Below, one piece after another: positions 3,439 through 31,810 of a stretch of 64,000 nt of DNA. Below the pieces are notes generated by a model. That model searched no databases. It saw nothing but the letters and a program-made list of their open reading frames with translations, and was not told where the DNA came from. Position 1 is the stretch's first letter. Each line of letters begins with the position of its first letter. Location: assembly GCF_000968055.1 (NCBI RefSeq), contig NC_022538.1, positions 903,499 to 967,498 of the forward strand, read 5' to 3'. This stretch comes from Alteracholeplasma palmae J233. Lineage in GTDB: Bacteria > Bacillota_I > Bacilli_A > Acholeplasmatales > Acholeplasmataceae. The position numbers and the translations under genes were made by a program.

Positions 3439-3470
3439 ATGCAAGAAATAAAAATTGAGAAAGCGTGAGT

Positions 3471-4808
3471 ATGATGAACAATAAAACAAATAAATTTAAC
3501 TGGAAAGTACTTCTTGCCATATTGGCAATTATTATATTTAATATTTTATTTTTAATGCTTTTAGGCAAAGTAAGAAGAGACAGTTATAAAATAACTATTA
3601 TTACAGTAGATGTTTTATTAACTCTTTTAGCTTTACTTATGACAAGAGGTTTATTGAAAAATAAAAAAACAAAAGAACTGAATCAAACAAAAAACAATGA
3701 GTTTATTCAGAAAGTTAAGTTACCAGAAGTCTCAGAACTTATTGTCTATGAAGAACAACAAGAAACTAAAGAAGAGTACAAAGCATATGTAGAAGACTTA
3801 GAAGTAACTAATTTAGAAATTCAAAAACCTAAACGTATAATTCAGACTAAACCAATCTATAATAAAAAAATTAATATGCTAGAATACGTTGAAGAACTAG
3901 AACAGTATTTTTTAGATCACGGGCTTCAAGTAAGTAAAAAATTAGTAAGAGAAGTACTCGCAGCTTTAACTGTTACAAAATCACTCATTTTTAAAAATGA
4001 AAATAACCAAGTTGCTAAATACTTTATTGAAGTTCTGTCCAATTTTATTGGGGCAAATGCTGATTTTATAACTCATAAAGATATTATTACTGATCTTAAC
4101 TACATTATGAATTCAGAAACAGCTTTCAGACTTTTAACATCAGCTCAACAAAGCGAAGAAAAATTACACATCCTTACAATTAGTAATATCAATGAAAAAG
4201 ATGATTTATCATACATGAAAGAATTATCACAATACATTTTAGATGCAAATGTTGATGAGTTAGTCTCAAAAGAATTGAACAATAAATATAGTCAGTTTCC
4301 TAAAAATATTTGGTTCTTATTTACAACTAACAGTAAAATCAATACTAGAAATTACCCACTATTAGGTAAATCAATCACAATCAGCTTAGACATATCACTT
4401 ACAACACCAAAAGAAGAAGTCATAGAAAATAGTATGAAACTATCATATACCATGCTTCTATCATCAATAGATAAGAATATCAGTAAATATTTATTAGAAG
4501 AATTCTACTGGAAACATTTTGATAAATTAGAAGGCGTACTAAAAGAAAATACTGATATTAGAATCAATAACTATACCCTAAACCTTATTGAAAGATATAC
4601 AGCTTATTATCAAATCTATGGCGGAGAGTTATTAGAGGCAGTAGATACTGCTATTGTTACAATTATATTACCAATGATAACCCAAGATGATTTTATTAAA
4701 TTTTCTTCTAATAAACTAAAGTTATCAGGTACATTTGAAGATATATTTGGGCTAAAAAAAATCAATCAAACAGTTGCAATACTAGATAAAATCGAACGAC
4801 AAAATTAA
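3471..4808 (+). CDS. Membrane-tethered AAA+-like protein lacking ATPase motifs
   Basis: 445 residues from ATG 3471, chosen because GAGAAAG (3457-3463) is well spaced; GTG 3465 and ATG 3474 are alternatives. Two N-terminal membrane helices (about 10-31 and 40-58) place a large C-terminal domain in the cytoplasm. That domain aligns by eye with the AAA+ domain of the two downstream ATPases: 'TVTKSLIF' matches 'SVTRIIIL', 'KNIWFLFTTNS' matches the sensor-1 stretch 'KNMWFIGTANN', and 'ITISLDIS' matches 'AMVLNLD'. The Walker A position reads KNENNQVAK (about 175-183) instead of GxxGxGKT/S, and the Walker B position reads ISNIN (about 237-241) instead of LDEMN. I infer a non-hydrolysing paralogue, perhaps a structural subunit of a mixed AAA+ ring. 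The homology call rests on visual alignment. Confidence 0.65.
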   Translation: MMNNKTNKFNWKVLLAILAIIIFNILFLMLLGKVRRDSYKITIITVDVLLTLLALLMTRGLLKNKKTKELNQTKNNEFIQKVKLPEVSELIVYEEQQETKEEYKAYVEDLEVTNLEIQKPKRIIQTKPIYNKKINMLEYVEELEQYFLDHGLQVSKKLVREVLAALTVTKSLIFKNENNQVAKYFIEVLSNFIGANADFITHKDIITDLNYIMNSETAFRLLTSAQQSEEKLHILTISNINEKDDLSYMKELSQYILDANVDELVSKELNNKYSQFPKNIWFLFTTNSKINTRNYPLLGKSITISLDISLTTPKEEVIENSMKLSYTMLLSSIDKNISKYLLEEFYWKHFDKLEGVLKENTDIRINNYTLNLIERYTAYYQIYGGELLEAVDTAIVTIILPMITQDDFIKFSSNKLKLSGTFEDIFGLKKINQTVAILDKIERQN

Positions 4809-4832: not shown

Positions 4833-6185
4833 ATGTATATATTAAATAAAATATTTTCACTACCATTTTTGATTGATTTTAATGAAATTTTAGAATCAAC
4901 TTGGAAAGTAATGACAAGCAAAATAGCAGTTTTAATTTATATAGCAGTTATTTTAATTTTTATTATTTTCAGCATTATTCTAGTTATATTAAATGAAACA
5001 AAGAAGGAAAACCTTAAAAAAGATATCACCGAAAAACAAGTGATGCTAAATTCTTCTAATAAAGAAGAAGTGCATACTAATAAATCTTCTCTTGAAACCT
5101 CAAGTGATAATAGATTTTCAATGTTATGCAAAATAGATGAAGAAATAGAAAATAGTGGCCCAATGAGTTTTGAAGATGAAACAACATTAAGCCAAATCTG
5201 TGAAGAATTTCGATTATATTCAGCTGATAAACTTAAACTCTATTATGATATAGAAGATATTAGAAGATTCATTGCAGGACTTTCTGTGACAAGAATTATT
5301 ATCCTACAAGGGATGTCTGGAACAGGTAAAACATCATTGGCCTATGCATTTGGTAAGTATCTTAAAAATGATACGACAGTTGTACCAATTCAACCTATGT
5401 GGAAAGAAAGAACTGACTTAATAGGATATTACAATGAATTTACAAGAAAGTTTAATGAAACAACTCTTCTTCAAAAAATCTATGAAGCAAACTACCTAGA
5501 CAAAATCTATATTACCGTATTAGATGAAATGAATATCGCGCGAATTGAATATTACTTCGCCGAATTCTTATCTTTATTAGAACTACCAGATTATAATAAA
5601 AGATATTTAGATGTCGTTTCAGATGAGTGGAACACTGATCCTAAACTACTTCAAAAAGGAAGAATTATCTTACCTAAAAATATGTGGTTTATAGGAACAG
5701 CTAATAACGATGACTCAACTTTTGCCATATCAGATAAAGTTTATGATAGAGCGATGGTATTAAACTTAGATAAAAAGGCAACCCCATTTAGAGTAAAAGA
5801 ATCAAATCAGAGAATGTTATCTGAAACTAAATTTGAAGAACTGATTAAAAAAGCTCAAAAAGTCTATAAGATAACAGAAAGAAACTTAAGAAGAATTAAA
5901 ACGATTGATAAATACTTAACAGATAAATATCAAATTACCTTTGGTAACCGTATTATGCAACAAATAAAAAATTACGTACCTGTAATGATTGCGTGTGGTG
6001 GAAGTGAACTAGGGGCAATCGATGATATCTTATCAAAAAAAGTTTTACGTAAACTAGAAACTAAAAATATGGTCTATGTAAAAAGTACTATTCCAGATTT
6101 AATATCATTTATAGAAGAATTATTTGGTGAAGAAGAAATGTTATTATGTAAAGAATATATTAAACAAATAGAAATTAACGCTTAA
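4833..6185 (+). CDS. Membrane-anchored AAA+ ATPase (McrB/AAA_5-like), copy 1
   Basis: 450 residues; RBS GGGAG at 4817-4821. One membrane helix (about 31-53) followed by a Lys-rich stretch puts the ATPase domain in the cytoplasm. Walker A is GMSGTGKTS (160-168), Walker B VLDEMN (229-234), sensor 1 GTANND, and VYDRA supplies a likely arginine finger. The order 'LDEMNIARIEYYF...FLSLLE' is typical of McrB/dynein-related AAA_5 ATPases. From Thr82 to the C-terminus (369 residues) it is identical to the protein at 7991-9427; only the membrane-proximal N-terminus differs. It lies 24 bases after the ATPase-dead paralogue. Substrate unknown; remodelling of envelope-locus components is inferred from the operon. 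Confidence 0.85.
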   Translation: MYILNKIFSLPFLIDFNEILESTWKVMTSKIAVLIYIAVILIFIIFSIILVILNETKKENLKKDITEKQVMLNSSNKEEVHTNKSSLETSSDNRFSMLCKIDEEIENSGPMSFEDETTLSQICEEFRLYSADKLKLYYDIEDIRRFIAGLSVTRIIILQGMSGTGKTSLAYAFGKYLKNDTTVVPIQPMWKERTDLIGYYNEFTRKFNETTLLQKIYEANYLDKIYITVLDEMNIARIEYYFAEFLSLLELPDYNKRYLDVVSDEWNTDPKLLQKGRIILPKNMWFIGTANNDDSTFAISDKVYDRAMVLNLDKKATPFRVKESNQRMLSETKFEELIKKAQKVYKITERNLRRIKTIDKYLTDKYQITFGNRIMQQIKNYVPVMIACGGSELGAIDDILSKKVLRKLETKNMVYVKSTIPDLISFIEELFGEEEMLLCKEYIKQIEINA

Positions 6186-6200
6186 ACTTATACTGAAAGG
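5074..6200 (+). repeat. 1,127-bp direct repeat, copy 1
   Basis: This segment, covering the AAA+ domain, the stop codon and 15 bases beyond, matches 8316-9442 base for base as far as I could compare. Divergence begins abruptly on both sides (5073/8315 and 6201/9443). Silent positions are also identical, so the event is very recent: gene conversion or duplication. Confidence 0.95.
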
Positions 6201-6210
6201 GGGAATCAAT

Positions 6211-7968
6211 ATGAAGAATATGAGTCTATACTATAAAGCATTTAAAGAACTCAAAAAAGTGACTGAAACACATAATGATGCTAAAAGAGCACGTAAAAAA
6301 TTAGTTGAAACACATAATGAACTAGACTCACTTATTGTTCTAAAGTATGACTGCATGATTGATTCAGACTGGATTACTGAAATTGAAAACACATTAGAAT
6401 TTATTGAAAAAGCTATTCGAGAAGATAGACAGTTCATTACATCAGAAGGTAATGTGTTGCCAATTGAAAAAGTAAAGAAGACATCAAAAGAAACTATTAA
6501 GCATTTATCGCAACATAGTGATTTAATTACCCATGTCCCAGAAAAAGAAAGTGATCCTTTAATTCCTGATAAGTTATATGTGGTAGAAAAATTAAGCGAT
6601 TACCTAGTTTATGAAAATAGATTTATTTTTATGTTACTGTCATATTTAAGAGACTTTATTGAATTAAGAATTACTAAAGTTAAAGAAAAAGTAACTACCT
6701 ATCATATGGAAGTTAAAATGAATAAACAAATCAATGATAACTATCGAAAAATGATTTATAAATTAGATTACGAAGATACTTTTAAAAATGATCCATATTT
6801 AACAGATAATTATTATAAAATACCCAATGTTAAACGTATGGAAAATGCTTATGCCCAAGTAATCTCAATGTTATCAACAGAACTTATGAAACAGGTTGCT
6901 AAAGCACCTATCATTAAACCACCTGTGGTTAAAACAAATGTGTTAAGAATGAACCAAAACTTTAAAAAATCGCTTGCATTATATGACTATATTACCTCTT
7001 ATACAAAAGATGGATATACATTAACAGAACATAAGAATGAATTTAATCCTTTTGATTTGAAAATGGCAGACAATATCGTTGAAACAATTGAATTATCTAC
7101 CTTAATTAGTTATAGTTTTGGACAAAATCTTTTGGAACAATTAGAACAGGAATATCAGATTGAACTAGAAAAATTACAACAAGAAGAAATCAAAAAATTC
7201 ACACTAGAAGTAAGTAAACTAAAAAACAAAGTAGAAAATGGTAAACTTGATCCTTTAGAGTACATTGTAAAACTAGAAAAGTTAGTAGAACTTAAAGATA
7301 AACAAATAGAAACCTTAAGTGCTGAAATAAAAGATAGTTTAAAACATCTAGATACAATCGAACAACTCAATGATAAAGTTGAAATAAATGAAAAACAAAT
7401 AGCTGCTCTAGAAAAAGTTATTGAAGAAAAAACAGATCAGTTAGTTCTTAATAGCCTAGAACATGAAACAACAATCAAGAATCTTAAAGAAGAACATCTA
7501 AATAACTTAAATACTCTAAAAAATGATTATTTAGAAGAACTTGAAAAGACTAAGATTGAACAAGATGAAACAATCAAACAAATAAAAGAAGAATTCACAG
7601 AAAAAGAAAATCATTATGAAGAAAAAGTGAAAACTTTAAATGAAACAAACGAGCAAAAAAATCAAGAAATATCTAAATATAAAGATGATCTTGAAACAAT
7701 TATCCATGAAAAAAGAGAACTTAATGCAAGATATTATGGATTAAGAGAAAAAAATGGATTGAATATCAATGAAGATTTTACCTCTAAAAAGGACTTTAAA
7801 GAACTAGAATTAGAAATGGATGCTTATAAGAAATTCTTCAAAGAACAATGGAAAAAAACAAAAATACGCATCAAAAAAGAAGTGAAAGAAGAATTAAATA
7901 CTAAGGGACAAAAAAGAAAAAATACCAAAGAGAATGAAAAAGAAGAAAATATCAATTTTGACGAATAA
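6211..7968 (+). CDS. Cytoplasmic coiled-coil protein of unknown function
   Basis: 585 residues; RBS AAGGGGG ahead of ATG 6211. No membrane segment or signal. The first ~310 residues are helical and charged with no motif I recognise; residues about 315-545 form a long Glu/Lys heptad coiled coil, and the C-terminus is strongly basic. It sits between the two identical AAA+ genes and would be lost if they recombined. A long rod partner for the AAA+ subunits is a reasonable guess from position alone. Confidence 0.7.
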   Translation: MKNMSLYYKAFKELKKVTETHNDAKRARKKLVETHNELDSLIVLKYDCMIDSDWITEIENTLEFIEKAIREDRQFITSEGNVLPIEKVKKTSKETIKHLSQHSDLITHVPEKESDPLIPDKLYVVEKLSDYLVYENRFIFMLLSYLRDFIELRITKVKEKVTTYHMEVKMNKQINDNYRKMIYKLDYEDTFKNDPYLTDNYYKIPNVKRMENAYAQVISMLSTELMKQVAKAPIIKPPVVKTNVLRMNQNFKKSLALYDYITSYTKDGYTLTEHKNEFNPFDLKMADNIVETIELSTLISYSFGQNLLEQLEQEYQIELEKLQQEEIKKFTLEVSKLKNKVENGKLDPLEYIVKLEKLVELKDKQIETLSAEIKDSLKHLDTIEQLNDKVEINEKQIAALEKVIEEKTDQLVLNSLEHETTIKNLKEEHLNNLNTLKNDYLEELEKTKIEQDETIKQIKEEFTEKENHYEEKVKTLNETNEQKNQEISKYKDDLETIIHEKRELNARYYGLREKNGLNINEDFTSKKDFKELELEMDAYKKFFKEQWKKTKIRIKKEVKEELNTKGQKRKNTKENEKEENINFDE

Positions 7969-7990
7969 TATTTTTTAAAGGAGCTATAGT

Positions 7991-9427
7991 ATGAATAAAA
8001 AATATAAACATATACTTACATTTTCATTAATTATGATTGTCATCATGAGTGTCTTGCTCATTGTTTCAATCTATAATCAAAAACAATTTATTGATGAAAA
8101 TGAAACAGCTTCTAATGCGAAAATTATTTATATTTTAGTAACAGCATTTCTTTTAGCTTCTTCCATTTTTTCTATTTTAATTATTCTCATTAAAAATCAT
8201 AAAAAAACAACTAAAAAAGCTATGAGAATGAGTCATAAAACTAAAAAAGTGGGCCCGATTAAAAATGAATTGATTGCTAAATATCAAAAAGAAGATAAAA
8301 ATATAGTCAAAGAAGATACTAATAAATCTTCTCTTGAAACCTCAAGTGATAATAGATTTTCAATGTTATGCAAAATAGATGAAGAAATAGAAAATAGTGG
8401 CCCAATGAGTTTTGAAGATGAAACAACATTAAGCCAAATCTGTGAAGAATTTCGATTATATTCAGCTGATAAACTTAAACTCTATTATGATATAGAAGAT
8501 ATTAGAAGATTCATTGCAGGACTTTCTGTGACAAGAATTATTATCCTACAAGGGATGTCTGGAACAGGTAAAACATCATTGGCCTATGCATTTGGTAAGT
8601 ATCTTAAAAATGATACGACAGTTGTACCAATTCAACCTATGTGGAAAGAAAGAACTGACTTAATAGGATATTACAATGAATTTACAAGAAAGTTTAATGA
8701 AACAACTCTTCTTCAAAAAATCTATGAAGCAAACTACCTAGACAAAATCTATATTACCGTATTAGATGAAATGAATATCGCGCGAATTGAATATTACTTC
8801 GCCGAATTCTTATCTTTATTAGAACTACCAGATTATAATAAAAGATATTTAGATGTCGTTTCAGATGAGTGGAACACTGATCCTAAACTACTTCAAAAAG
8901 GAAGAATTATCTTACCTAAAAATATGTGGTTTATAGGAACAGCTAATAACGATGACTCAACTTTTGCCATATCAGATAAAGTTTATGATAGAGCGATGGT
9001 ATTAAACTTAGATAAAAAGGCAACCCCATTTAGAGTAAAAGAATCAAATCAGAGAATGTTATCTGAAACTAAATTTGAAGAACTGATTAAAAAAGCTCAA
9101 AAAGTCTATAAGATAACAGAAAGAAACTTAAGAAGAATTAAAACGATTGATAAATACTTAACAGATAAATATCAAATTACCTTTGGTAACCGTATTATGC
9201 AACAAATAAAAAATTACGTACCTGTAATGATTGCGTGTGGTGGAAGTGAACTAGGGGCAATCGATGATATCTTATCAAAAAAAGTTTTACGTAAACTAGA
9301 AACTAAAAATATGGTCTATGTAAAAAGTACTATTCCAGATTTAATATCATTTATAGAAGAATTATTTGGTGAAGAAGAAATGTTATTATGTAAAGAATAT
9401 ATTAAACAAATAGAAATTAACGCTTAA
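7991..9427 (+). CDS. Membrane-anchored AAA+ ATPase (McrB/AAA_5-like), copy 2
   Basis: 478 residues; RBS AAAGGAG ahead of ATG 7991. The N-terminus has two membrane helices (about 8-28 and 45-66) where copy 1 has one, followed by a basic linker. From Thr110 on it is identical to copy 1, with Walker A Lys194 and Walker B Asp259/Glu260. Two ATPases with the same motor domain but different membrane anchors suggest either two complexes or two positions within one complex. Gene conversion keeping the motor domains identical is the simplest explanation. Confidence 0.85.
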   Translation: MNKKYKHILTFSLIMIVIMSVLLIVSIYNQKQFIDENETASNAKIIYILVTAFLLASSIFSILIILIKNHKKTTKKAMRMSHKTKKVGPIKNELIAKYQKEDKNIVKEDTNKSSLETSSDNRFSMLCKIDEEIENSGPMSFEDETTLSQICEEFRLYSADKLKLYYDIEDIRRFIAGLSVTRIIILQGMSGTGKTSLAYAFGKYLKNDTTVVPIQPMWKERTDLIGYYNEFTRKFNETTLLQKIYEANYLDKIYITVLDEMNIARIEYYFAEFLSLLELPDYNKRYLDVVSDEWNTDPKLLQKGRIILPKNMWFIGTANNDDSTFAISDKVYDRAMVLNLDKKATPFRVKESNQRMLSETKFEELIKKAQKVYKITERNLRRIKTIDKYLTDKYQITFGNRIMQQIKNYVPVMIACGGSELGAIDDILSKKVLRKLETKNMVYVKSTIPDLISFIEELFGEEEMLLCKEYIKQIEINA

Positions 9428-9442
9428 ACTTATACTGAAAGG
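8316..9442 (+). repeat. 1,127-bp direct repeat, copy 2
   Basis: Exact partner of 5074-6200 in the same orientation, offset 3,242 bases. Homologous recombination between the copies would delete the coiled-coil gene and leave a single chimeric ATPase with the copy-1 anchor. Confidence 0.95.
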
Positions 9443-9452
9443 AGTTTATCAT

Positions 9453-11990
9453 ATGCATAGAAAAAAATTAATCTTTAGTGGTATTATACTCATTACTACC
9501 TTAATGGGAGTCTTAATGTATGTTTTATTTACTACATTTGGCATTATTAATGGCGAATCTACTAAAAAACAATTAACAATTAAAACTGAATCTGCTCAAA
9601 AAATATATGATGGAACCCCTTTAACTAGTGAGTTATTTACATTGTTTGAAGGCGAATTGGGAAAAGAAGAAAGAATTGAACCTAAAGAGTATACAAAAAT
9701 AACAAATGTTGGTAAAGCTGATAATATCATTCAATTTGTTATCTTGAATAAAAATAATTCGGATGTCACTAAAAAATATGAGATAAATTATTTATTCGGA
9801 AAATTAGAAGTTATCCCTAAAACTATCTATATTGAAACAAAAGAAGAAAGTAAGATATATGATGGAGAAGAACTTACTTCAGATGAATATATTTTAGATG
9901 AAAAAGCATTAATTAAAGGTGATGCAGTTAAAGTTATCGGGACAACAAAAATAACTGATGTAGGAACTAAACTTAATGAAATTGTCACAACAATTTTAAA
10001 TCATCAAAATATAGATGTTACTAAAAACTACGATATAAAGTATAAAAATAATAATCTAACAATAAAGAAGATACCTATAACAATCGCATCAAGGGGTAAA
10101 TCTAAAGTTTATGACGGAGAAGAACTTACTGGAAGTGATGACGATATTATTCCAATTCAAGGACTTTTAGAAGGACATCAAGTAGAAAATCAATTTACAG
10201 GTACTATAACAGAACCTGGTAGTGCAGAAAATCAATTTGTTACAACTATAAAAGATAACAATGGTAAAGATGTGACTGCGCAATATGATATTAAATATGG
10301 ATTTGGAAATTTAACAGTACTTACAAGTATTTATTCAGATGGAAAAATAGAAAATAAAAATGTAGAAGAATATGAAAATACAATTGTTGCAAGCATCGAG
10401 ACAGACCATAATGGATCAACTTATTTAAGATATAAATCATTTGGAGATTTTTTTGAAGGCAGTTGGCAAGACAATAATATTCAAACAGACAGTATAAGCC
10501 CACTTTTATTTACAAGTTTATCAATTGAAAAAAATTCAAAGGCAATCAAAAGACAAACAATGAACCTTGTTTATGAAAAAGATCAAGTGCCATTTTTAGC
10601 ACCATACTATATTAGCTCACAAATTAAAGATGAGCTTAATATAACGAATGACAGTTATATCAAAAATACTAAGTTGGACTCTTATAAATTTGTATTTACA
10701 GCTTATAATACACTAGTTAATGGTGCTTCTAATATTATTGAAGAATATAGTGCTGAAGAAGCCCAATATTATGAAAATATTAAAGCATATTATTTAAGTA
10801 TTCCTGAAGAAATTAAACCAATATTAGACAAACTTATACAAAATATAAAAATAACTCCAACTGAACTAGGTGATAAAAAAGAACTTGTATCAGTTGTGAA
10901 AAAAGTGTCTAAATACTTCAAAGAAAATTTTAATCAGTCAAATAAGTCTGATTATGCAAAAAGTACTTTGAAAGAAGTATTTGAAACTAATGAAGGCAGT
11001 GCAGATCAGCTTGCTACATTAGCAACTTTACTGTTAAGAAGACTAGATATACCTGCTAGATACACAACAGGTTATTACACAGATATACGAAATAACCTAG
11101 GTAGTTTACATGAAGAAAATGCTCATTCATGGGTTGAATTTTATATTCAAAATATGGGTTGGATTCCATTAGAAGTGACACCAGGAATAGCAGATAAAAT
11201 TGAAATTACTGTTACTCCAAATAAAGTTACAAAACAATGGGATGGTAATGATTTAGAGTTTGATCCTAAAAATATTAGAGTTACTAACTTTCAAGAGTAT
11301 AAAAATCTTGGATATACCTATGAAGCAATAATTAATAAAATGAAGAAACCAGAAACTGGTAAATATAAATATTCTGTGAATGATTTTAAAATTTATGATG
11401 AAAATAATAATGATGTAACAGAGTTATTTGAAATTATTTATAAAGAAGCCGATCTACAAATATATAAAGAAAAACTAATAATTGAAACAGAAAGTATATA
11501 TTCTGACTATGATGGTAGTACAGAATGGAGAAATGATGAGCGAGGACAAATTAAAGTAATTGGTGAAGAACTTCTTACTGACTATGATGTAAAAGTTAGC
11601 TTTTCTAGTTTAAGTAAAACTGTGTTTCAAAAAAATAACAGCGCTATTCTTAAGATTTATGATAAAAATAATAATGATGTAACTGACCACTATTTGATCA
11701 CTGAAAATTTTGGTAAAGCAGTTATGCGTCGAAAACCTATTACAGTTAGATCTAAGTCTAAAACTGTTAAACATGAGCCTGAAACAGGACAAATTTTAGA
11801 ATATAAAGAATTAGAAGAAATAATAGGACTTGTAGAAGGTGATGAAATAAAAGAAGTAATCTTTACTGGTCAACAAGTAGACTTAGGAAGTAGTCCAAAT
11901 ACATTTAGTATAGTTATTTATAGAGGAAACTTAGATGTTACTCAATATTATGAAATAATGTATATACCTGGAGAATTAGAAATAAGATAG
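9453..11990 (+). CDS. Membrane-anchored YDG/MBG protein with a Cys-less transglutaminase domain
   Basis: 845 residues; RBS AAAGGAG. An N-terminal signal anchor (about 6-28) should leave the rest outside the cell. Three YDG/MBG-type repeats follow (IYDGTPLTS, IYDGEELTS, VYDGEELTG, each about 80 residues), then a transglutaminase-like core (about 480-580), then three weaker repeats. The core keeps 'LLLRRLDIPARYTTGY', His558 in 'AHSWVEFY' and 'GWIPLEVTPG', but the usual catalytic Cys is Ala517 (EGSADQLA where families have GxCxxxA), and the usual Asp is Glu574. Established transglutaminase-fold chemistry needs the Cys, so I infer a non-catalytic binding domain. MoxR/AAA+ genes next to transglutaminase-domain genes are a known pairing, which this operon resembles. 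No LPXTG motif or C-terminal membrane helix. Confidence 0.8.
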   Translation: MHRKKLIFSGIILITTLMGVLMYVLFTTFGIINGESTKKQLTIKTESAQKIYDGTPLTSELFTLFEGELGKEERIEPKEYTKITNVGKADNIIQFVILNKNNSDVTKKYEINYLFGKLEVIPKTIYIETKEESKIYDGEELTSDEYILDEKALIKGDAVKVIGTTKITDVGTKLNEIVTTILNHQNIDVTKNYDIKYKNNNLTIKKIPITIASRGKSKVYDGEELTGSDDDIIPIQGLLEGHQVENQFTGTITEPGSAENQFVTTIKDNNGKDVTAQYDIKYGFGNLTVLTSIYSDGKIENKNVEEYENTIVASIETDHNGSTYLRYKSFGDFFEGSWQDNNIQTDSISPLLFTSLSIEKNSKAIKRQTMNLVYEKDQVPFLAPYYISSQIKDELNITNDSYIKNTKLDSYKFVFTAYNTLVNGASNIIEEYSAEEAQYYENIKAYYLSIPEEIKPILDKLIQNIKITPTELGDKKELVSVVKKVSKYFKENFNQSNKSDYAKSTLKEVFETNEGSADQLATLATLLLRRLDIPARYTTGYYTDIRNNLGSLHEENAHSWVEFYIQNMGWIPLEVTPGIADKIEITVTPNKVTKQWDGNDLEFDPKNIRVTNFQEYKNLGYTYEAIINKMKKPETGKYKYSVNDFKIYDENNNDVTELFEIIYKEADLQIYKEKLIIETESIYSDYDGSTEWRNDERGQIKVIGEELLTDYDVKVSFSSLSKTVFQKNNSAILKIYDKNNNDVTDHYLITENFGKAVMRRKPITVRSKSKTVKHEPETGQILEYKELEEIIGLVEGDEIKEVIFTGQQVDLGSSPNTFSIVIYRGNLDVTQYYEIMYIPGELEIR

Positions 11991-12026
11991 GAAGGAGAAA
12001 CAGTCAGAGACTGTAAATAAATTATG
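11991..12026 (+). promoter_or_regulatory. Distant Shine-Dalgarno with hairpin in the spacer
   Basis: The only Shine-Dalgarno (AGGAG, 11993-11997) lies 26 bases before ATG 12024, and a stop codon (TAA 12018-12020) rules out an earlier in-frame start. A perfect hairpin ACAGTC-AGA-GACTGT (12000-12014) fills the gap; folding it brings the effective spacing to about 11 bases. Confidence 0.5.
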
Positions 12027-15000
12027 TTATACGATAAATATGAAACACGAGTTAGAAAAAATATCTTAATTCAAAAAATAATTATTAAACATAAAATACC
12101 TATTTTAATTACATTAGCTGTTCTGATAATCCTTTTTGTAATTTATTCGTTCACAAAAGGAAATATTTCTAATGTGAAATATGAAGCAAGTATTCAATAT
12201 GGAGAAAATTTTGAGATAAATTCCCAAGCACTGATGTCAAATGTTAGTTATGAATATAAAAAAATAGGTGATGATACATGGACAACGCAAGTACCTAAAA
12301 TAGCTGGCGAATATGAAGTAAAAATAACTAGTAAAAAAGTCTTTGGTATTAAAAATTCCAAAACATACGCATTCACAATTATCCCTAGAGAACTAGATAT
12401 AGAAATAAAAGAAGATACAATTCTTTTTGGAACTAAATTATCAACTAGGCAAGCACTCATCAATGGCGATCGTATTGCAAGTATTAAGTATACTTATGGA
12501 GATATTACACAAAAAGAAACAAGTGTAATCGGAAAAGAAGCTGTTATTATCGATAATAACGGTGATGATATAACAAGTTCATATCAAATAAACTATATTG
12601 AAAAAAATATAAAATTTACTACATCTACTTTAGGGTTGAAACTGAAAGATAAAAAAATAATTTATGACGGAAAAGAACTTACATCAAAAGAATATGATTT
12701 AATAGGAAATCTTTCTGATGAATTTACTATTAAGTATGAAACGATGGGATCACAAACTAATGTAGGAACTAGCGAAAATAAAATTAGTTCATTTAGTATC
12801 TATTATGGTGATATTGATGTTACACATCAAATTAATCCTAATCATACTGCAGGGAAACTTGAAGTTACAAAAAGAGATATAACAGTTAAACCAAAGGATG
12901 TTACTAAGGAGTATGATGGACTTTCTCTTACAAGCAACGATGCTGAAACTACTAATTTAGTAAAAGAGCATAAGGCTTCTATAACTACTAATGGATCAAT
13001 TACAGATGCTAACTATAGCCAAAATACAATAAAATCATTAGAAATTACTGATAAGAATGGTAATGATGTAACAACCAACTACAATATTAAAACGCTACCA
13101 GGAACCCTAACTATTAAAAAAAGAAATATTGAAATTAAAACAAGCGATTTAAATGATATAGAATACGATAGAAACTATTATTCTAATAATCAGTATGAAA
13201 TTGTTGGTAGTTTGGCACCTAATCAAAAAGAAAATATAAATTTTATTGTATCTGTTACTAATGCAGGTACTCACAATAATGTTATGAGTTTTAAAATCAA
13301 AGATATAAATCAAAACGATGTAACATCAAACTATGATATCAGTTATATATATGGGAAAATAACAATTAGTCCTAGAAAATTAGTTATAAAAACTAATGAC
13401 TATATTTCTACATATAATGGGGGCTCACACTATGATAAAGAAATAAATATTGTTGAAGGAACACTTGCTTATCAACAAAATATAAGACTTAATAGTTTTA
13501 CTAGCATTATAAATGTAGGAACAAAAATAAATAAGTTTACTGTGGATGTTATTGATGAAAATTTAAATATAAATACGAAGAACTATGACATAAAATTCAT
13601 TGAAGGAACAATTACAGTTAACCCTCTTGAAATTACTGTAACTTCAGAAAATTTAGAAGGAATTTATGATAGTTATGTACATTCTAATTTAAAGTATAAA
13701 ATTGATAATGAAATTGTAAAAGGTCATATGGCTGAAATAGTGGACTTTACTACAATTAAAAATGTGGGACAAACTTTAAATAAAATTGAAATTAGGATTT
13801 ATAATCAAAATGAAGATGTGACGCCAAACTATAAGATAAACTACAATTTTGGTACACTAAAAATTAATAAAAGAGATATTACAATTAAACCCAAAGATAT
13901 AAAACGCACCTATGATGGCACAATATTGACATCTAAGACAGTAGAATATATCAAGGGCTATCTTGGTTATAATGATTTAATAAGTATTGACACAAAAGGA
14001 AGCATCATTGATGTTGGTAAGATTGATAACGAAATAAGAGCTATCTCTATTATAGATACTACTAATGGTACAGAAGTAAACAATAATTATAATATTTTAA
14101 ATGAACTAGGAACTTTAACAATTACCCAACAACCTATAACAGTTAAACCACTTGATATAAGCAAAGTTTATGACGGAAAAGAGCTTACAAGTGCTCTTCC
14201 TGAAGTAGTTGGAACTGGTCTTGCTGAAGGTGATTTTATTGAAATTATAACAAATGGACAAATTACTGATGCTGGTACTAGTAATAATGAAATAATCGGG
14301 ACACCCAAAATTATTTCAAGAAGTAGAAACTTAGATGTTTCTAATAATTATGAAATTACAAATCAAATAGGTGAACTAAGAATTACACAAAAATCAATTA
14401 CAATCAAACCAAAAGATGAAACAAAAATTTACGATGGTAAGGAATTAATAAGCATTGTAGCACTTGATTTTAATAAAGATCTCATAGATACTGAAAATAT
14501 TTTTATTAAAACAGATGGTAAGCCTATAAATGTTTTGGATAACAAGATAAATACAATTACAAGTGTTAAAATTGAAAAGGCTGATGGAACTGATTCAACA
14601 GGTAATTATAATATTACAAAACAAACAGGACTCTTAACGATTAGCCCAAGACCAATAACAATTACTACAGGTAGTGCGACTAAAGAATATGATGGTACTC
14701 CATTATCAATAGATTATAATTATCTTTCAAGTGGAGCAATTATAGAATCAGAAGAATTAGAGGTAATTATAAATGTAACTATTACAGATGCTATTAGTGT
14801 AAGTAATTCTATAAATAGTATTTCAATAACTAAGCTTGACGGTACTTCTTCAAGAGATAACTATAAGATTACAGAACAACTTGGAACTTTAACAATTACT
14901 CCAAGAGCTATTACAATCAAACCAAAAGATGAAACAAAAGTATATGACGGTAAGGAATTAATAAGCAATACACCAGAATATGATAATGATAGACTTGTAT

Positions 15001-18000
15001 CTGGAGAGACGATTATCCTTACAACAAAAGGTAAGCCTGTAAATGTTGTAGAAAATCATGAAAATGAAATTGATAAAATAGCTATTCTAAACTCAAATGG
15101 TACGTCTTCAATAAACAATTATACAATTACCAAACAAAAAGGGTTCTTAACAATTACTCCAAGACCAATTACTATCAGACCAAAAGAAGAAACAAAAGTA
15201 TATGATGGTAAGGAATTAGTAAGCAATACGCCAGAATATGATAATGATAGACTTATATTTGGAGAACATCTTATTATCACAACAGATAATAAACTCATCG
15301 ATGTTGGTTCGATTACTGAAAATAATATTGTGACTGCTAACATTTATAAGTCTAGTGGCGAGGATTCAACAAACAACTATAATATTACAAGAAAAACAGG
15401 CTCCTTAACAATTACTCCAAGAGATATTACAATCAAACCAAAAGATGAAATAAAAATTTATGATGGGCAACCATTTGTAAGTAACAAGGCTGTAGATGTT
15501 AATGGTGAACTTGTATTTGGAGAAACAATTATTCTTAAAACAAAAGGTAAACCTGTAGATGTTGTAGAAAATTACGAAAATGAAATTGATGAAGTAACTA
15601 TTACAAAATCAGATGGCACTCAATCAACAAACAATTATACAATTACCAAACAAATAGGGTCCTTAACAATCACTAAAAGACCAATCACAATCAAACCAAA
15701 AGATGAATCAAAAGCATATGATGGTAAGGAATTAGTAAGTAATGATCCTGTAGATGTTAATAGTGAACTTGTATTTGGAGAACGCATTGTTATTACAACA
15801 GATAAGAAAATCATCGATGTTGGTTCAACTAACCAAAATAATATTGTAACCACTGATATTTATAAAGCAAATGAGGGTACTTCAACGAATAACTATCATA
15901 TTACAATTTTGCCTGGAACACTAACTATCACAAAAAAACAAGTCACAATTATAACTTTGGGATTAGAACTAGCATATGATGGTAATATACATTCTAATAA
16001 AGAATATACTACTGAAGGATTAATACATGAACATGAAACAAGTTTAGATCCAGATAAATCTATCCCAACGATTAAAAATGTAGGTCGATTTGATAATGAT
16101 CTGACGGTTATTATTAAAGATTCTAAAGAAAATGATGTCTCTGACAATTATGATATCATTTATGTATACGGAAAATTGGTTATTACCAGACGTGAAATAA
16201 CAGTTATAACTGGTTCTAAAACTGCGATCTATGACGGAACTGAACATTATAATGAGAAAATAGAAATTGATAAAGGGAGCCTAGTTTCTGGACAAAAGTA
16301 TAATGTTACAAGCTATACTAAACAAATTAATGCAACGGATTCAACTGGCATTTCTAATAAGGTAACAGTTGAAATTATTGGACAAAATGAGACTGATGAT
16401 TACACTAATAACTATATGATTAACTTTATAGAAGGCAGAATCATTGTTAATAAGAAACCCATAACTGTAAAAACAAGCAGCCATTCAATCGAATTTGATG
16501 GGAAATATCACAGAGGAGACTATGAAATTGTGGGAGAGTTGTCTTCTGAATATGAAAGTCAGATCAATAGCTATGTTAGTGGTTATGGTGTTGATAAGCA
16601 TGTAAACAAAATAAAAATTTGGATTTACAAAGATCGTTTAGATGTTACTGATAACTTTGATATTACATACTTATATGGAATAATTGAAATTACAAAACGC
16701 CAAATAACAATAATAAGTGGTTCTAAAATAAAAGAATATGATGGAACTGAAATTAATTCATTTGATACAAAAACGACTTCTGAAAACTTAGTAGTTAATC
16801 ATAGAATAGAAATAACTAAGTCTACAAGAATTACTAATGTTGGAGAAACTACTAATACAATTGAAATTAGTATCATTGATGATTCATTAAGTGAACTAAC
16901 CGGGAAGACAGGAAATGTGACATATTGTTATGATATTTCATATGAAAATATTGGCAAATTAGAAATAACAAAGAGAAGTATTAATATTAAACCAGAAGAT
17001 AGCTATAAAGAATATGATGGTCAACCGTTAATAGCTTCCAAGGCTCAAGTTATTAGTGATAAGCTATTAGCTCTTGGTGATGAAATTACTGCTATTATTA
17101 CAAGTGGATCACAAACTGATATAGGAAAAAGTACTACTAAGATAATAAGTTATACAATAAAAAATAAAAATGGAAATGATGTAACTAAAAACTATAATGT
17201 AGAGGCTAATACAGAAGGAACATTAACAGTTAATAAACGAGAAATAGCAATCAAGATAAAAGATGAACAAAAAGTTTATGATGGTAAATCTTTAGTATTT
17301 AAAGAGACACAGGACTTAAATAAAAAACTACTTGAAGGTCATAAAATAGTACATCAGTTTGATACTAGTGATATTATTAAAAACGCTGGAACATTAAGCA
17401 GTGATAAAGGAACTTTTGAAATCTATGATGGTAATAAAAAGGTATCATATCTATACAATATAAGTATTATAGAAGGTCAGTTACAAATTGACCCACTAAA
17501 AATCAATGTTCAAGCTGCTTCAAAAACAACTGTTTATAATGGAACAAATTATATATATGAAACAACTAGTTACTACATTAACCCTGAATCATTTATTGAT
17601 AACCACAGTCATAAATTGAAATTTGGGGCAGTTTTAGAAGGAACTGGAATAAAACAACTAGAATTTGTTAAAGAAGGCTCTAAAATTGTCAACAGTCTCA
17701 ATGAAGATATGTCTATGAACTATACTTTTAACATTAAAGGTGAACTAAAAATAACAAAAGCTACCTTAATAATAACTGCTGCATCTGAAGAAAAGGAGTA
17801 TGATGAAAAAGAATTAACAAATAATTCGTACACCACTTCTGGCCTTTTAGGAGGTCATGAAGTAACAGTTGAAATAATAGGTAATATTACAGATGTTGGA
17901 AGAGAAGTTAATAAAGTAGGTACCGTAGTAGTTAAAGATGGCAATTTAGATGTAACAGCATATTACGAGATTACAAGAATTGATGGTATGCTAAGAATTA

Positions 18001-18017
18001 CTGATTCAATAGAATAG
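12024..18017 (+). CDS. Giant membrane-anchored YDG/MBG repeat surface protein
   Basis: 1,997 residues. A cytoplasmic basic N-terminus is followed by one membrane helix (about 29-48); the rest should be extracellular. It is built of about 22 YDG/MBG-type modules of 75-90 residues, each opening with 'ITIKPKD..K.YDGKEL'-like sequence and closing with 'NYNIT...GTLTITPR'-like sequence; 21 show a recognisable YDG/YNG/FDG motif. Modules 8-13 (about 14399-15900) are close to identical at DNA level. Such repeats form strings of beta-sandwich domains in bacterial adhesins and stalk proteins. There is no LPXTG, no C-terminal membrane helix and no enzymatic domain. Likely a long fibre held by its N-terminal anchor; ligand unknown. 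Start fixed by the upstream stop codon. Confidence 0.85.
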   Translation: MLYDKYETRVRKNILIQKIIIKHKIPILITLAVLIILFVIYSFTKGNISNVKYEASIQYGENFEINSQALMSNVSYEYKKIGDDTWTTQVPKIAGEYEVKITSKKVFGIKNSKTYAFTIIPRELDIEIKEDTILFGTKLSTRQALINGDRIASIKYTYGDITQKETSVIGKEAVIIDNNGDDITSSYQINYIEKNIKFTTSTLGLKLKDKKIIYDGKELTSKEYDLIGNLSDEFTIKYETMGSQTNVGTSENKISSFSIYYGDIDVTHQINPNHTAGKLEVTKRDITVKPKDVTKEYDGLSLTSNDAETTNLVKEHKASITTNGSITDANYSQNTIKSLEITDKNGNDVTTNYNIKTLPGTLTIKKRNIEIKTSDLNDIEYDRNYYSNNQYEIVGSLAPNQKENINFIVSVTNAGTHNNVMSFKIKDINQNDVTSNYDISYIYGKITISPRKLVIKTNDYISTYNGGSHYDKEINIVEGTLAYQQNIRLNSFTSIINVGTKINKFTVDVIDENLNINTKNYDIKFIEGTITVNPLEITVTSENLEGIYDSYVHSNLKYKIDNEIVKGHMAEIVDFTTIKNVGQTLNKIEIRIYNQNEDVTPNYKINYNFGTLKINKRDITIKPKDIKRTYDGTILTSKTVEYIKGYLGYNDLISIDTKGSIIDVGKIDNEIRAISIIDTTNGTEVNNNYNILNELGTLTITQQPITVKPLDISKVYDGKELTSALPEVVGTGLAEGDFIEIITNGQITDAGTSNNEIIGTPKIISRSRNLDVSNNYEITNQIGELRITQKSITIKPKDETKIYDGKELISIVALDFNKDLIDTENIFIKTDGKPINVLDNKINTITSVKIEKADGTDSTGNYNITKQTGLLTISPRPITITTGSATKEYDGTPLSIDYNYLSSGAIIESEELEVIINVTITDAISVSNSINSISITKLDGTSSRDNYKITEQLGTLTITPRAITIKPKDETKVYDGKELISNTPEYDNDRLVSGETIILTTKGKPVNVVENHENEIDKIAILNSNGTSSINNYTITKQKGFLTITPRPITIRPKEETKVYDGKELVSNTPEYDNDRLIFGEHLIITTDNKLIDVGSITENNIVTANIYKSSGEDSTNNYNITRKTGSLTITPRDITIKPKDEIKIYDGQPFVSNKAVDVNGELVFGETIILKTKGKPVDVVENYENEIDEVTITKSDGTQSTNNYTITKQIGSLTITKRPITIKPKDESKAYDGKELVSNDPVDVNSELVFGERIVITTDKKIIDVGSTNQNNIVTTDIYKANEGTSTNNYHITILPGTLTITKKQVTIITLGLELAYDGNIHSNKEYTTEGLIHEHETSLDPDKSIPTIKNVGRFDNDLTVIIKDSKENDVSDNYDIIYVYGKLVITRREITVITGSKTAIYDGTEHYNEKIEIDKGSLVSGQKYNVTSYTKQINATDSTGISNKVTVEIIGQNETDDYTNNYMINFIEGRIIVNKKPITVKTSSHSIEFDGKYHRGDYEIVGELSSEYESQINSYVSGYGVDKHVNKIKIWIYKDRLDVTDNFDITYLYGIIEITKRQITIISGSKIKEYDGTEINSFDTKTTSENLVVNHRIEITKSTRITNVGETTNTIEISIIDDSLSELTGKTGNVTYCYDISYENIGKLEITKRSINIKPEDSYKEYDGQPLIASKAQVISDKLLALGDEITAIITSGSQTDIGKSTTKIISYTIKNKNGNDVTKNYNVEANTEGTLTVNKREIAIKIKDEQKVYDGKSLVFKETQDLNKKLLEGHKIVHQFDTSDIIKNAGTLSSDKGTFEIYDGNKKVSYLYNISIIEGQLQIDPLKINVQAASKTTVYNGTNYIYETTSYYINPESFIDNHSHKLKFGAVLEGTGIKQLEFVKEGSKIVNSLNEDMSMNYTFNIKGELKITKATLIITAASEEKEYDEKELTNNSYTTSGLLGGHEVTVEIIGNITDVGREVNKVGTVVVKDGNLDVTAYYEITRIDGMLRITDSIE
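14399..15920 (+). repeat. Tandem near-identical YDG-module DNA repeats
   Basis: Six consecutive modules of about 250 bp repeat with high DNA identity; for example ACAATCAAACCAAAAGATGA recurs near 14400, 14917, 15430 and 15683, followed by closely matching 'gatggtaaggaatta' stretches. Slippage or recombination here would change protein length in whole domains while keeping frame. Confidence 0.8.
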
Positions 18018-18031
18018 GGAGGCTTTTAAAA

Positions 18032-18910
18032 ATGAATAAAAGCATGTTTCAATTAATAAAATATGGAATGAAAGAAACAAGAAAAGCATTTAAAACTAAT
18101 AGGGCATCATTTTATAGTTATCTTACATATGTACTATCGATGATTATAAGTATGGCTAGCGTATTTTTATATCCACTATTTGCCTTATCAGAAGTAAAAA
18201 TAGTAAAAATGATGGAAGAAGATAATCAATTTTCAGTTGAATCTTCTTTCTCAAATACAGATAAACCTAATAAGTATTGGACTGCCTTAGGTTATTTTGC
18301 TGTAAAATTACTAAGATCAATAGTAACAACTGGTATCTTCGTTGGCCTAATTTTCTTATTTAAAGAACTTGGTTTTCAAATAGATATATTACTAGAATTT
18401 GAAAAAGAATATGTTACTTTTATCTTTACTTTAATAACAGCTATTGTAGGGCTTATTGTCTTAGTAAGACAAAATTTGCTCATGGCACCCATTTTTTATA
18501 TTATCGCAACAGAAAATACAAGTATGTCACAAGCGTATTCTAAAGGGATAGAAGTAATGAAAAAAAGAGGTAAAACTAAACTTTTACTCATTCAAATCAT
18601 TAGTTTAATTAGAGCAGCATTCTATATAGGATTTTTTGTAGGATTTCTAATGATTGGAAAAGAATACCTAGAAACTGAATTGCTTGTCTCATTAACAGTG
18701 ATTTTTATCCTGATGCTAATCTTTATCTTACCTAAAATTTGGTTAGCCTATAAAGTTTCTAGTATCACTCATTTTAAACAACTAGTAGATGATTATAATA
18801 ATGAAAATATTGAGATTACAGAAGAAACATATATTGAAAGACAAGTGAAAGAATCAAGAGAAAAATTAGACATATTGTTTAGAGCTGATGAACCTGATTC
18901 TAACTTATAG
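18032..18910 (+). CDS. Polytopic membrane protein, unknown function
   Basis: 292 residues; RBS GGGAGG ahead of ATG 18032. About five to six hydrophobic helices (roughly 28-50, 85-108, 125-145, 150-165, 188-210, 215-238) with a charged C-terminal tail of about 50 residues. Family not recognised. It follows the giant repeat protein by 14 bases; a channel or platform for the surface proteins is a guess from context. Confidence 0.7.
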   Translation: MNKSMFQLIKYGMKETRKAFKTNRASFYSYLTYVLSMIISMASVFLYPLFALSEVKIVKMMEEDNQFSVESSFSNTDKPNKYWTALGYFAVKLLRSIVTTGIFVGLIFLFKELGFQIDILLEFEKEYVTFIFTLITAIVGLIVLVRQNLLMAPIFYIIATENTSMSQAYSKGIEVMKKRGKTKLLLIQIISLIRAAFYIGFFVGFLMIGKEYLETELLVSLTVIFILMLIFILPKIWLAYKVSSITHFKQLVDDYNNENIEITEETYIERQVKESREKLDILFRADEPDSNL

Positions 18911-18915
18911 GTGAA

Positions 18916-19611
18916 ATGATGGAACTAAATATAATTGCCTACATAAGTCTAGGTATTGGGATTCTTTCAATGATCTTTGCAATTATACTAAGAATCTTAT
19001 ATAAAAAGAAATATGAATTAAAAAGAAATATGAATGACTTTTTTGAAGACTATAAACTATCTGAAAGTTATATAGGTGATGTGAAGTATAATTTATTTAA
19101 ACCACAATCACTATCTATGGAACTTATGAGCCATTATGCTATTGCATACGAAGAGACACAAACATATTTAATTTGTAAGTTTTCTAAAGAAATCCCCAAT
19201 GTTACATTAAAAGTTTATGCCTACACTACATATAAACAACTCATCGATATCATATTTGTAGAACAAACAGGAAAGTTTGATCACACATCAAAAATAACCT
19301 TGCCACAAGAAACTGCCTATGTTAACATTGAAGTTTTAGAAACTAACGAAAATAAGGTTCCTGATATAATTGAGCATAAGTACTTCATTAATAAAGTGAT
19401 TGCTAAATTAGCAACCGTTTCTTTATTTCATTTATTAATTGGGATATCGTACCTTACGATGTATTTGATAGATGATGATATGATAGATAGTTTTCTTACA
19501 ACTGAAAATAATTCTATCTTACTTTCAGTGCTGATAGTTGTTTGTCTTATTAACTATCTACTTGTTAATAAAACATTAAAAAAAAGAGCTAAAGTAGGTA
19601 TGAAAAAATGA
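18916..19611 (+). CDS. Small membrane protein, unknown function
   Basis: 231 residues; RBS AGGTGA just before tandem ATGs at 18916 and 18919. Membrane helices at about 4-27, 165-185 and 195-215 flank a soluble domain of about 130 residues rich in beta-type sequence. Its segment 'ATVSLFHLLIGISYLT' resembles 'HQVSMFHKNKNISFYIT' in the next protein, suggesting a distant pair. Ends in an ATGA overlap with the next gene. Confidence 0.65.
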   Translation: MMELNIIAYISLGIGILSMIFAIILRILYKKKYELKRNMNDFFEDYKLSESYIGDVKYNLFKPQSLSMELMSHYAIAYEETQTYLICKFSKEIPNVTLKVYAYTTYKQLIDIIFVEQTGKFDHTSKITLPQETAYVNIEVLETNENKVPDIIEHKYFINKVIAKLATVSLFHLLIGISYLTMYLIDDDMIDSFLTTENNSILLSVLIVVCLINYLLVNKTLKKRAKVGMKK

Positions 19612-20090
19612 ATAATCTTAATTTGATATCTAAAAAAACATATGTTATTAAAGAAGAATCTAACCTTGAATTACTAGAACATATTATTTGTATGGATCAA
19701 GATAAATTACAATATACCTTTTTAAAACTTAAAAATAATATTAATAAAAAAATATCTCATCTTAAATTAGAAATAACCTTCTATGATGCTCCAAATAACC
19801 CTGTTCAAAAGGCTTTATACACATTTAATGATATTAGCCATATTAAGAATTACATACTCTTAAATGAGGGAATAGGAGTTCATAGAAAGTATGAAACGAT
19901 ATCTATTCAAGTGATGTCCTATGATAGTGAAGTATTTGAAACTCAAAATGAAATAGATCTAACAAAAGAATCTTTACATCAAGTAAGTATGTTTCATAAA
20001 AATAAGAATATTAGTTTTTACATTACATTAATGTTCTTTATACTATTTTTAGCAGGAATTATTATTAGTTATTTTCTTTTTATTGCATAA
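19608..20090 (+). CDS. Tail-anchored small protein, last gene of the operon
   Basis: 160 residues. The start overlaps the preceding stop by four bases (ATGA), implying translational coupling. A soluble domain of about 130 residues is followed by one C-terminal membrane helix (about 137-158), so the domain is probably cytoplasmic. Family not recognised. Confidence 0.65.
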   Translation: MNNLNLISKKTYVIKEESNLELLEHIICMDQDKLQYTFLKLKNNINKKISHLKLEITFYDAPNNPVQKALYTFNDISHIKNYILLNEGIGVHRKYETISIQVMSYDSEVFETQNEIDLTKESLHQVSMFHKNKNISFYITLMFFILFLAGIIISYFLFIA

Positions 20091-20237: not shown

Positions 20238-20252
20238 GGTATAATTATAGTA
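20237..20252 (+). promoter_or_regulatory. Extended -10 promoter giving a leaderless transposase transcript
   Basis: TGGTATAAT (20237-20245) is an extended -10 box ending six bases before the transposase ATG (20252), so transcription should start at or next to the start codon. There is no Shine-Dalgarno; the upstream region is the terminator. Confidence 0.6.
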
Positions 20253-21748
20253 TGCAAACACAACAAAATATACAACATAATTTTAACCCAAAACAGTTAA
20301 AATTACCACTACAATTAGACATAAAAATTCCTTTTGATAGTGAAGTTCGTACATTTGATGAAGTATTTAGAAAATTGGAGATAAAAAAATACTTAAATAG
20401 CTCAAAAGACCCAAGAGGTCGTATGGGTTATAATCCGGTTCAAATGTTAAAACTGATCATGTTTTGTCAAATGGAAAAGATTCAATCTTTAAGAGATATG
20501 GCAAAAGCTGCTAAAAATGATATTAGAATCATGTGGCTTACAGATGAATTAATGCCAAGTCATCAAACAATAAAAACCTTTATGGATAAATACTTAGTTA
20601 AAGGAATAGATGAAATCTTTTATGAACTAAGTAAGTACTTAATAAAAAAAGAATCTATTGATACAGATAAATTATATATAGATGGTACTAAAATAGAATC
20701 GGTGGCTAATAAATATAGTTTTACATGGCGTGGTTCTATTGAAAAGTTTAGAGATAAGTTATATAAAAAAATAACCAAACAGATAGAATCCTTAAATAAA
20801 AGATATGAAGACTCAGATATCTTCTTTTCCATACATGAAACATATAACACTGATAATTTAAATAGCATCAAAGACTTTCTACTTAATGAGATAGATAGGG
20901 AATTAATAGAGTTTAAATATGGTAAAGGAAAAAGAAAAACTACTTTACAAAGAGATTATGAACATATCTTAGAATATTTAGCTAAACTTGTAGAGTATGA
21001 AAGACATTTAAAGATTATGGGTAATGATAGAAACTCATATGCTAAAACAGATATAGACGCGACTTTTATGCATATGAAAGAAGATCATATGCGTAATAGT
21101 CAATTAAAACCAGGGTATAATATACAAATTGGTGTATCAAATGAATATATCCTACATCTAGATATCTATAAAGAACGTAGTGATTATAAAACTTTGATTC
21201 CTTTTTTAGAAGGATTTAAGAAAAGTTATGACTTCTATCCAAAATATCCAGTAGCGGATGCTGGATATGGTGGATTAACGAATTATCGTTATTTAAAACT
21301 AAACGATATGGAGCTTTATCAAAAATATGCAATGTATGCTAAAGATACGCATGACAAAAAAAGAATGAAAGATCCATATTTTCCATTTAACCTTACTAAA
21401 TCAGGTAATGATTATTTAACACCTAATGGAGATACTTTAAAGTATCTGTATAGAAATAATCGAGGTAATGATGTATATGAATTACCAAATGGTAAGCGTA
21501 AAGAGATTAATGATGAAAATCTTACATACCAAAAAGAGGTTATTAAAAATCTTACATCACCATTAGGAATTGAATTAAGAGTTCAAAGGTCAATTCAAGT
21601 TGAGGGTGCCTTTGGAGTGATTAAAGAAGCATTTAAAGTAAGAAGATTTAGACGAAGATTAACTCATAATGTTAAAATGGAGTTTTATTTAACAGCGATT
21701 GGGTATAATTTGAGAAAATATCATAATAAAAAGTATAGAATAACATAA
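20252..21748 (+). CDS. IS1182-family DDE transposase
   Basis: 498 residues, intact. The N-terminal DNA-binding region carries 'GYNPVQMLKLIMFCQ' and '..SHQTIKTFMDKY', typical of the IS1182/DUF772 type. The catalytic DDE triad is visible as Asp144 in 'IDGTKIES', the Asp of 'PVADAGYGG' and the Glu of 'QVEGAFGVIKEAF'. It catalyses cut-and-paste or copying of the IS. The start has no ribosome-binding site but lies directly behind an extended -10 box, so translation is probably leaderless. Confidence 0.92.
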   Translation: MQTQQNIQHNFNPKQLKLPLQLDIKIPFDSEVRTFDEVFRKLEIKKYLNSSKDPRGRMGYNPVQMLKLIMFCQMEKIQSLRDMAKAAKNDIRIMWLTDELMPSHQTIKTFMDKYLVKGIDEIFYELSKYLIKKESIDTDKLYIDGTKIESVANKYSFTWRGSIEKFRDKLYKKITKQIESLNKRYEDSDIFFSIHETYNTDNLNSIKDFLLNEIDRELIEFKYGKGKRKTTLQRDYEHILEYLAKLVEYERHLKIMGNDRNSYAKTDIDATFMHMKEDHMRNSQLKPGYNIQIGVSNEYILHLDIYKERSDYKTLIPFLEGFKKSYDFYPKYPVADAGYGGLTNYRYLKLNDMELYQKYAMYAKDTHDKKRMKDPYFPFNLTKSGNDYLTPNGDTLKYLYRNNRGNDVYELPNGKRKEINDENLTYQKEVIKNLTSPLGIELRVQRSIQVEGAFGVIKEAFKVRRFRRRLTHNVKMEFYLTAIGYNLRKYHNKKYRIT

Positions 21749-30654: not shown

Positions 30655-30666
30655 AGGAGAACTAAT

Positions 30667-31809: not shown

Positions 31810-31810
31810 T

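Follow-up and report, generated by a model that had tools for sequence, protein, structure and literature searches.

Probable recurrent gene conversion between the motor halves of two differently anchored AAA+ ATPases encoded beside surface-protein genes in Bacilli and Clostridia

Within the 64,000-nucleotide stretch of the Alteracholeplasma palmae J233 genome analyzed here (the window), two genes, AAA1 and AAA2, encode AAA+ ATPases that are identical in their motor halves and unrelated in their membrane anchors. We conclude that the two genes descend from an old duplication, after which homologous recombination (gene conversion) has time and again overwritten the motor half of one with that of the other while the anchors remained separate; in gene conversion itself our confidence is high. 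From the comparison with relatives, this homogenization appears to have occurred separately in at least 32 lineages.

Nucleotide comparison of positions 5074–6200 with positions 8316–9442, both on the plus strand, gave 1127 bp with zero mismatches, in agreement with the first-pass annotation of this DNA, and the edges of the block are sharp, as identity is at background level immediately outside both ends. The block starts about 13 codons ahead of the conserved AAA+ core and ends 15 nt beyond the stop codon, inside the ribosome-binding site of the next gene. The annotation had described it as a duplicated AAA+ motor domain, which is right as to the domain, but the block also spans the linker and the few bases after the stop codon. 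A search of the whole genome, which is a single contig of 1,554,229 bp, identified exactly two copies of the block (copy 1 in AAA1, copy 2 in AAA2) and paralogues at ~70% nucleotide identity to it at C1:581426 and C1:757905; a 40-bp probe from the block start matched only the two block copies (chance expectation 0). At the protein level the N-terminal membrane segments of AAA1 and AAA2, comprising their first 80–110 residues, are wholly different and the remainder is letter-for-letter equal.

AAA1 (450 aa, 4833–6185, plus strand) was assigned anchor type 1 by profile HMM, with one transmembrane (TM) helix at residues ~34–52, followed by an AAA_5/McrB-like core that matches AAA_5 (PF07728) above the cut-off and has intact Walker A (GMSGTGKT), Walker B (LDEMN), and sensor-1 (GTANNDDS) motifs. 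AAA2 (478 aa, 7991–9427, plus strand) was assigned anchor type 2, with two TM helices and a short outside loop between them, and its AAA+ core is identical to that of AAA1. Between the two lies the gene of a soluble coiled-coil partner protein (6211–7968, plus strand), which is conserved over its N-terminal ~300 residues; in the paired loci examined it likewise separates AAA1 from AAA2. The gene immediately preceding AAA1 encodes a membrane protein, protein A (3465–4808, plus strand), with two TM segments and no Pfam match. An hhalign comparison gave protein A a 326-column alignment to the AAA+ core (probability 99.8%, E 3.8e-28), and all five of its aligned orthologues lack the Walker A and Walker B residues; with this combination of profile match and missing Walker residues, protein A looks like a catalytically dead AAA+ paralogue of AAA1 and AAA2. 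In Clostridia, a similar degenerate AAA stretch forms the C-terminus of a protein of ~1100 aa with GH3-C and Fn3-like domains.

Downstream of AAA2 are genes for a one-TM protein that combines Ig-like segments with a transglutaminase-like domain (9453–11990, plus strand; PF01841, E 1.5e-18) and for a giant one-TM protein of 1997 aa with Ig-like (MBG_2-type) repeats (12024–18017, plus strand; PF18676, E 1.3e-6), in which 258-bp tandem repeats at 14336–15922 encode Ig-like units. Three small membrane proteins (18032–18910, 18916–19611, and 19608–20090) form the putative end of the operon, their membership being taken from position and strand only; every gene from protein A through these three is on the plus strand. 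An insertion sequence (IS) with a DDE transposase (DUF772), one of 11 near-identical full copies in the genome, lies directly downstream of the putative operon at 20252–21748. Farther along the window, positions 28285–32425 contain N-6 DNA methylase-like and ParB/DUF262-like reading frames, judged by eye to be a possible restriction or defense cluster, and positions 44184–49589 encode a membrane-anchored, repeat-like protein of 1801 aa to which no family was given.

The order AAA1, coiled-coil gene, AAA2, transglutaminase gene, Ig giant recurs across Bacilli and Clostridia and is common to Acholeplasmataceae, Anaeroplasmataceae, Haloplasma, and many metagenome-assembled genomes (MAGs) of Clostridia, with a spacing of 2.9–3.8 kb; named carriers include Haloplasma contractile and the isolate Anaerocaecibacter muris CLA-AA-M11. 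Among relatives in the window's own order, the arrangement is present on single contigs in two genomes (G047 and G057) and in pieces in two others (G041 and G022), whose contigs break inside the repeat. In G022 (contig C193, locus L046, 5112–6191), several stops interrupt the AAA1 frame, reflecting either decay or an assembly error at the repeat. The wider paralogous family has a single AAA gene followed by a homologue of the coiled-coil gene, and two such loci, both beside EAL/GGDEF genes, occur in the window's genome. One (L036:3930–12503, within C1:572000–591999) has EAL/GGDEF upstream, then the AAA gene and the coiled-coil homologue, together with short secreted-looking proteins and a signal-peptidase-like gene; the other (L037:7966–12592, within C1:748000–767999) has the EAL/GGDEF gene directly upstream of the AAA gene and then the coiled-coil homologue. 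This layout suggests that the AAA family is linked to c-di-GMP or to surface structures. No description of the paired gene cluster was found in the open-access literature searched.

Codon-level comparison covered the cores of 44 complete, non-redundant pairs, and five further diverged pairs from an evenly drawn order sample brought the total to 49. Homogenized pairs, with a core identity of 92.3–100% within the genome, make up 32 of these 49 and diverged pairs 17, proportions that are not a census because the main collection was enriched for sequences close to the window. The cores are exactly identical in nine of the homogenized pairs, and the nearest other genome has only 68–90% core identity (70.4% for the window). 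A core is closer to its own partner than to that of any other genome in 36 of the 44 pairs, and among pairs that are at least 94% identical the differences comprise 184 synonymous and 15 non-synonymous codons. In a maximum-likelihood tree of the cores, each of the 32 homogenized pairs forms its own cherry. The anchors behave in the opposite way, grouping by gene position and not by genome: profile HMMs, cross-validated with the tested genomes excluded from training, placed 87 of the 88 anchors correctly as AAA1 or AAA2, and hydropathy identified one TM helix in anchor 1 in 41 of 44 pairs and two in anchor 2 in 40 of 44. Because the anchors classify by position and the cores pair by genome, the anchors are the record of an old duplication and the cores that of later copying between the genes. 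The outcome that the first-pass annotation had named as telling against conversion, diverged copies in relatives with no conversion tract, is not what most of these pairs show.

The distribution of the residual differences is also consistent with conversion. Of the homogenized pairs, 23 show some difference, and in 16 of these the differences are confined to the first 60 or the last 40 core codons; in most pairs the long difference-free runs exceed random expectation. Two mosaic pairs (L089 and L097) have divergent stretches separated by uninterrupted identity over 129 and 126 codons (p 0.0002). Such edge and mosaic patterns are the expected residue of conversion in a homologous block with unrelated flanks. 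Short-read assemblers can smooth the interior differences of near-identical copies, which may exaggerate the edge pattern in MAGs, and for this reason we treat the pattern there as supporting, not decisive. The safer cases with regard to such smoothing are the closed window genome and the isolate A. muris, whose pair is 98.5% identical with differences spread along the core; the isolate locus L133 has 14 differing codons, which are scattered across the core.

In the 17 diverged pairs, core identity is 59–83% and both genes are kept. Nine of them constitute one well-supported clade of the core tree, within whose subclades the cores group by gene position, and three (L139, L151, and L152) are placed outside that clade; the five added pairs are absent from the tree. 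Walker A, Walker B, and sensor-1 are kept in both copies of all 12 diverged pairs checked, and a search for lost ATPase motifs in one copy of the escaped clade found none. Since neither gene has been lost from the diverged pairs, and the pairs checked have intact ATPase motifs, identity of the cores is not strictly required.

The main rival to a functional reading of the identity is neutral concerted evolution, whereby a close direct repeat has been homogenized simply because it is one, AAA1 and AAA2 act in separate complexes, and the sameness of their motors has no function. Near-identity could indeed persist in this way, since close direct repeats convert easily and selection is unnecessary. 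The differences are retained at the edges that adjoin non-homologous sequence, as the mechanics alone would predict, one large clade escaped with both genes still in place, and more distant paralogues are not homogenized, as in a control pair from the wider AAA family in G015 (14.8 kb apart, 75% identical). However, homogenization was either maintained or repeated in 32 or more lineages belonging to two classes, whereas paralogous pairs usually diverge (Wang and Chen, 2018, PMC6053082), and the diverged pairs are spaced 2.7–3.5 kb apart, about like the homogenized ones, so that proximity alone is insufficient to decide whether a pair is homogenized. On balance we consider the neutral reading rather unlikely, though it is the most serious of the alternatives. 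Far less probable is a recent origin, either as one duplication in this strain or as independent duplications of the motor in each lineage. The identity of the block would be accounted for, and the first-pass annotation had proposed very recent gene conversion or duplication, of which conversion stands and a single recent event or duplication does not, given that the pair is ancient and was homogenized separately in 32 or more lineages. Each of the two anchor types is an old family common to all lineages, and the gene order is conserved; this anchor orthology and synteny led us to reject a single recent duplication. The parallel version would need at least 32 events, each fusing the motor to the same pair of anchors, and the partial tracts in the mosaic pairs L089 and L097 argue against it also. 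We hold it to be just as improbable that the assembler duplicated one motor copy or collapsed two diverged ones, an artefact that the annotation had raised. That the contigs of relatives break inside the repeat (G041, G117, and G143) indicates that it disturbs assemblers, and polishing could have contributed to exactness over 1127 bp; yet the one-contig window genome places 11 near-identical full copies of a 1.7-kb IS (some ten beyond the first), and the same pair is present in dozens of independent assemblies, often with few synonymous differences, including that of the isolate L133.

The annotation had further suggested that the direct repeats, 3.2 kb apart, could delete the coiled-coil gene, giving an on/off or two-state locus. 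As considered here, crossover between the repeats would remove one motor as well and leave on/off or long/short forms in a population. The predicted 3.2-kb deletion product does have a counterpart in four loci (L113, L125, L128, and L134), in which the transglutaminase gene comes immediately after an anchor-1 AAA gene; their bins contain no coiled-coil gene, and close relatives of these four in the tree have full pairs. All four are from MAGs, however, where an unresolved repeat gives the same false join and short contigs often go unbinned; other bins contain contigs that end inside the repeat, and contigs of 3–4 kb with the coiled-coil gene and pieces of AAA at one or both ends. The deletion form may thus be either the product of repeat crossover or a short-read misassembly. 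A deletion of this kind cannot reverse itself, the analysis turned up neither a recombinase nor a control element, and losses follow other routes too, in that two loci have kept anchor 2. One is L132, in which the anchor type only was checked; the other (L102:7926–11074, Candidatus Borkfalkia) retains the anchor-2 AAA gene and the coiled-coil gene and is missing the anchor-1 copy, a loss that recombination between the repeats does not explain. We consequently see little likelihood of a recombinational two-state locus: no regulated two-state behavior was found, and a reversible or regulated switch is not supported. As the coiled-coil gene is conserved in the clusters of relatives, it looks like part of a machine and not like a cassette.

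A close published precedent for recurrent conversion of part of a gene is that of mtrA-1 and mtrA-2 in Methanococcales and Methanomicrobiales, two paralogues of one operon that have different TM segments and a soluble domain homogenized by long-lasting gene conversion (Wang et al., 2015, PMC4632066). The AAA+ pair is similar in its contrast between a diverged TM part and a homogenized soluble part. The paralogues within a genome are likewise more alike than orthologues between genomes, synonymous sites included, the fixed gene order and anchor orthology place the duplication before the species, and the differences have the edge or mosaic structure of tracts, with the caveat of short-read smoothing in MAGs. 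Unlike mtrA, which encodes an archaeal corrinoid protein of the Mtr complex and no ATPase, the pair analyzed here encodes AAA+ proteins of Bacilli and Clostridia and brackets a coiled-coil gene, and the escaped clade serves as an internal contrast. Wang and Chen (2018, PMC6053082) surveyed 682 prokaryote species and tabulated 26 genes under long-lasting concerted evolution, tuf, psbD, and ftsH among them. The AAA+ pair shares with these the history of old paralogues in fixed synteny that were recurrently homogenized, but it is absent from the 26, most of which are identical over nearly the whole gene and not over a motor half only.

Among solved structures, the active core comes closest in sequence to the McrB GTPase (PDB 6hz4, 6ut6, and 7vsr), a very weak match (E 0.001–0.0024). 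McrB has a DNA-binding domain where AAA1 and AAA2 have TM anchors, and Pfam gave no match to McrC or to the N-terminal DNA-binding domain of McrB among the genes at 10–20090 of the window; with the McrC partner missing and a TM anchor at the N-terminus, we rejected assignment to the McrBC restriction system. MoxR AAA+ loci with VWA partners (such as NorQ/NorD) encode an ATPase beside membrane or surface proteins, including a transglutaminase-like protein. The present locus is similar in that an AAA+ gene adjoins membrane and surface genes, a transglutaminase-like one among them, but the partner here is a coiled-coil protein; no VWA domain was matched by Pfam among the genes at 10–20090, and a MoxR–VWA chaperone module was rejected for lack of an adjacent VWA-domain protein. 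The PADLOC model of the anti-phage candidate PDC-M26A matched in two stretches, the best of them in the AAA part (residues 105–250 against model positions 283–430, E 1.1e-41). This candidate was also rejected, as only the AAA part matches and a protein of 450 aa cannot cover a model of 724 aa.

The reading we favor, as reasonably probable, is that AAA1 and AAA2 are the two active subunits of a membrane-anchored, hetero-oligomeric AAA+ machine, sharing one motor that gene conversion keeps interchangeable. In this picture both belong to a single assembly anchored in the membrane, where they would be neighbors; protein A, catalytically dead, and the coiled-coil protein would likely be further components. 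Through its two anchors the assembly would offer one and the same motor to two distinct membrane partners, or place it at two sites in the ring. Identical motors would be favored because a subunit must suit a common ring, partner, and substrate whichever anchor it has. The ATP would probably be spent in placing or remodeling the surface complex encoded alongside, that is, the transglutaminase-like and giant Ig-like proteins. More tentative, and to our minds somewhat short of an even chance, is the broader proposal of a membrane machine, widespread in Bacilli and Clostridia, whose single AAA+ ring combines a dead paralogue with two active subunits on different anchors, in which gene conversion actively keeps the motors identical, and from which one clade has departed by adopting two specialized motors. 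The repeat is also a warning, as it breaks or distorts metagenome assemblies. The cluster points to a conserved, apparently undescribed AAA+ surface machine in wall-less bacteria and gut Clostridia. It is a rare instance of recombination holding one half of two proteins identical, over a very wide range of bacteria, while the other half is free to diverge. The homogenized lineages and the escaped clade provide a built-in contrast for asking whether the matching of subunits drives concerted evolution.
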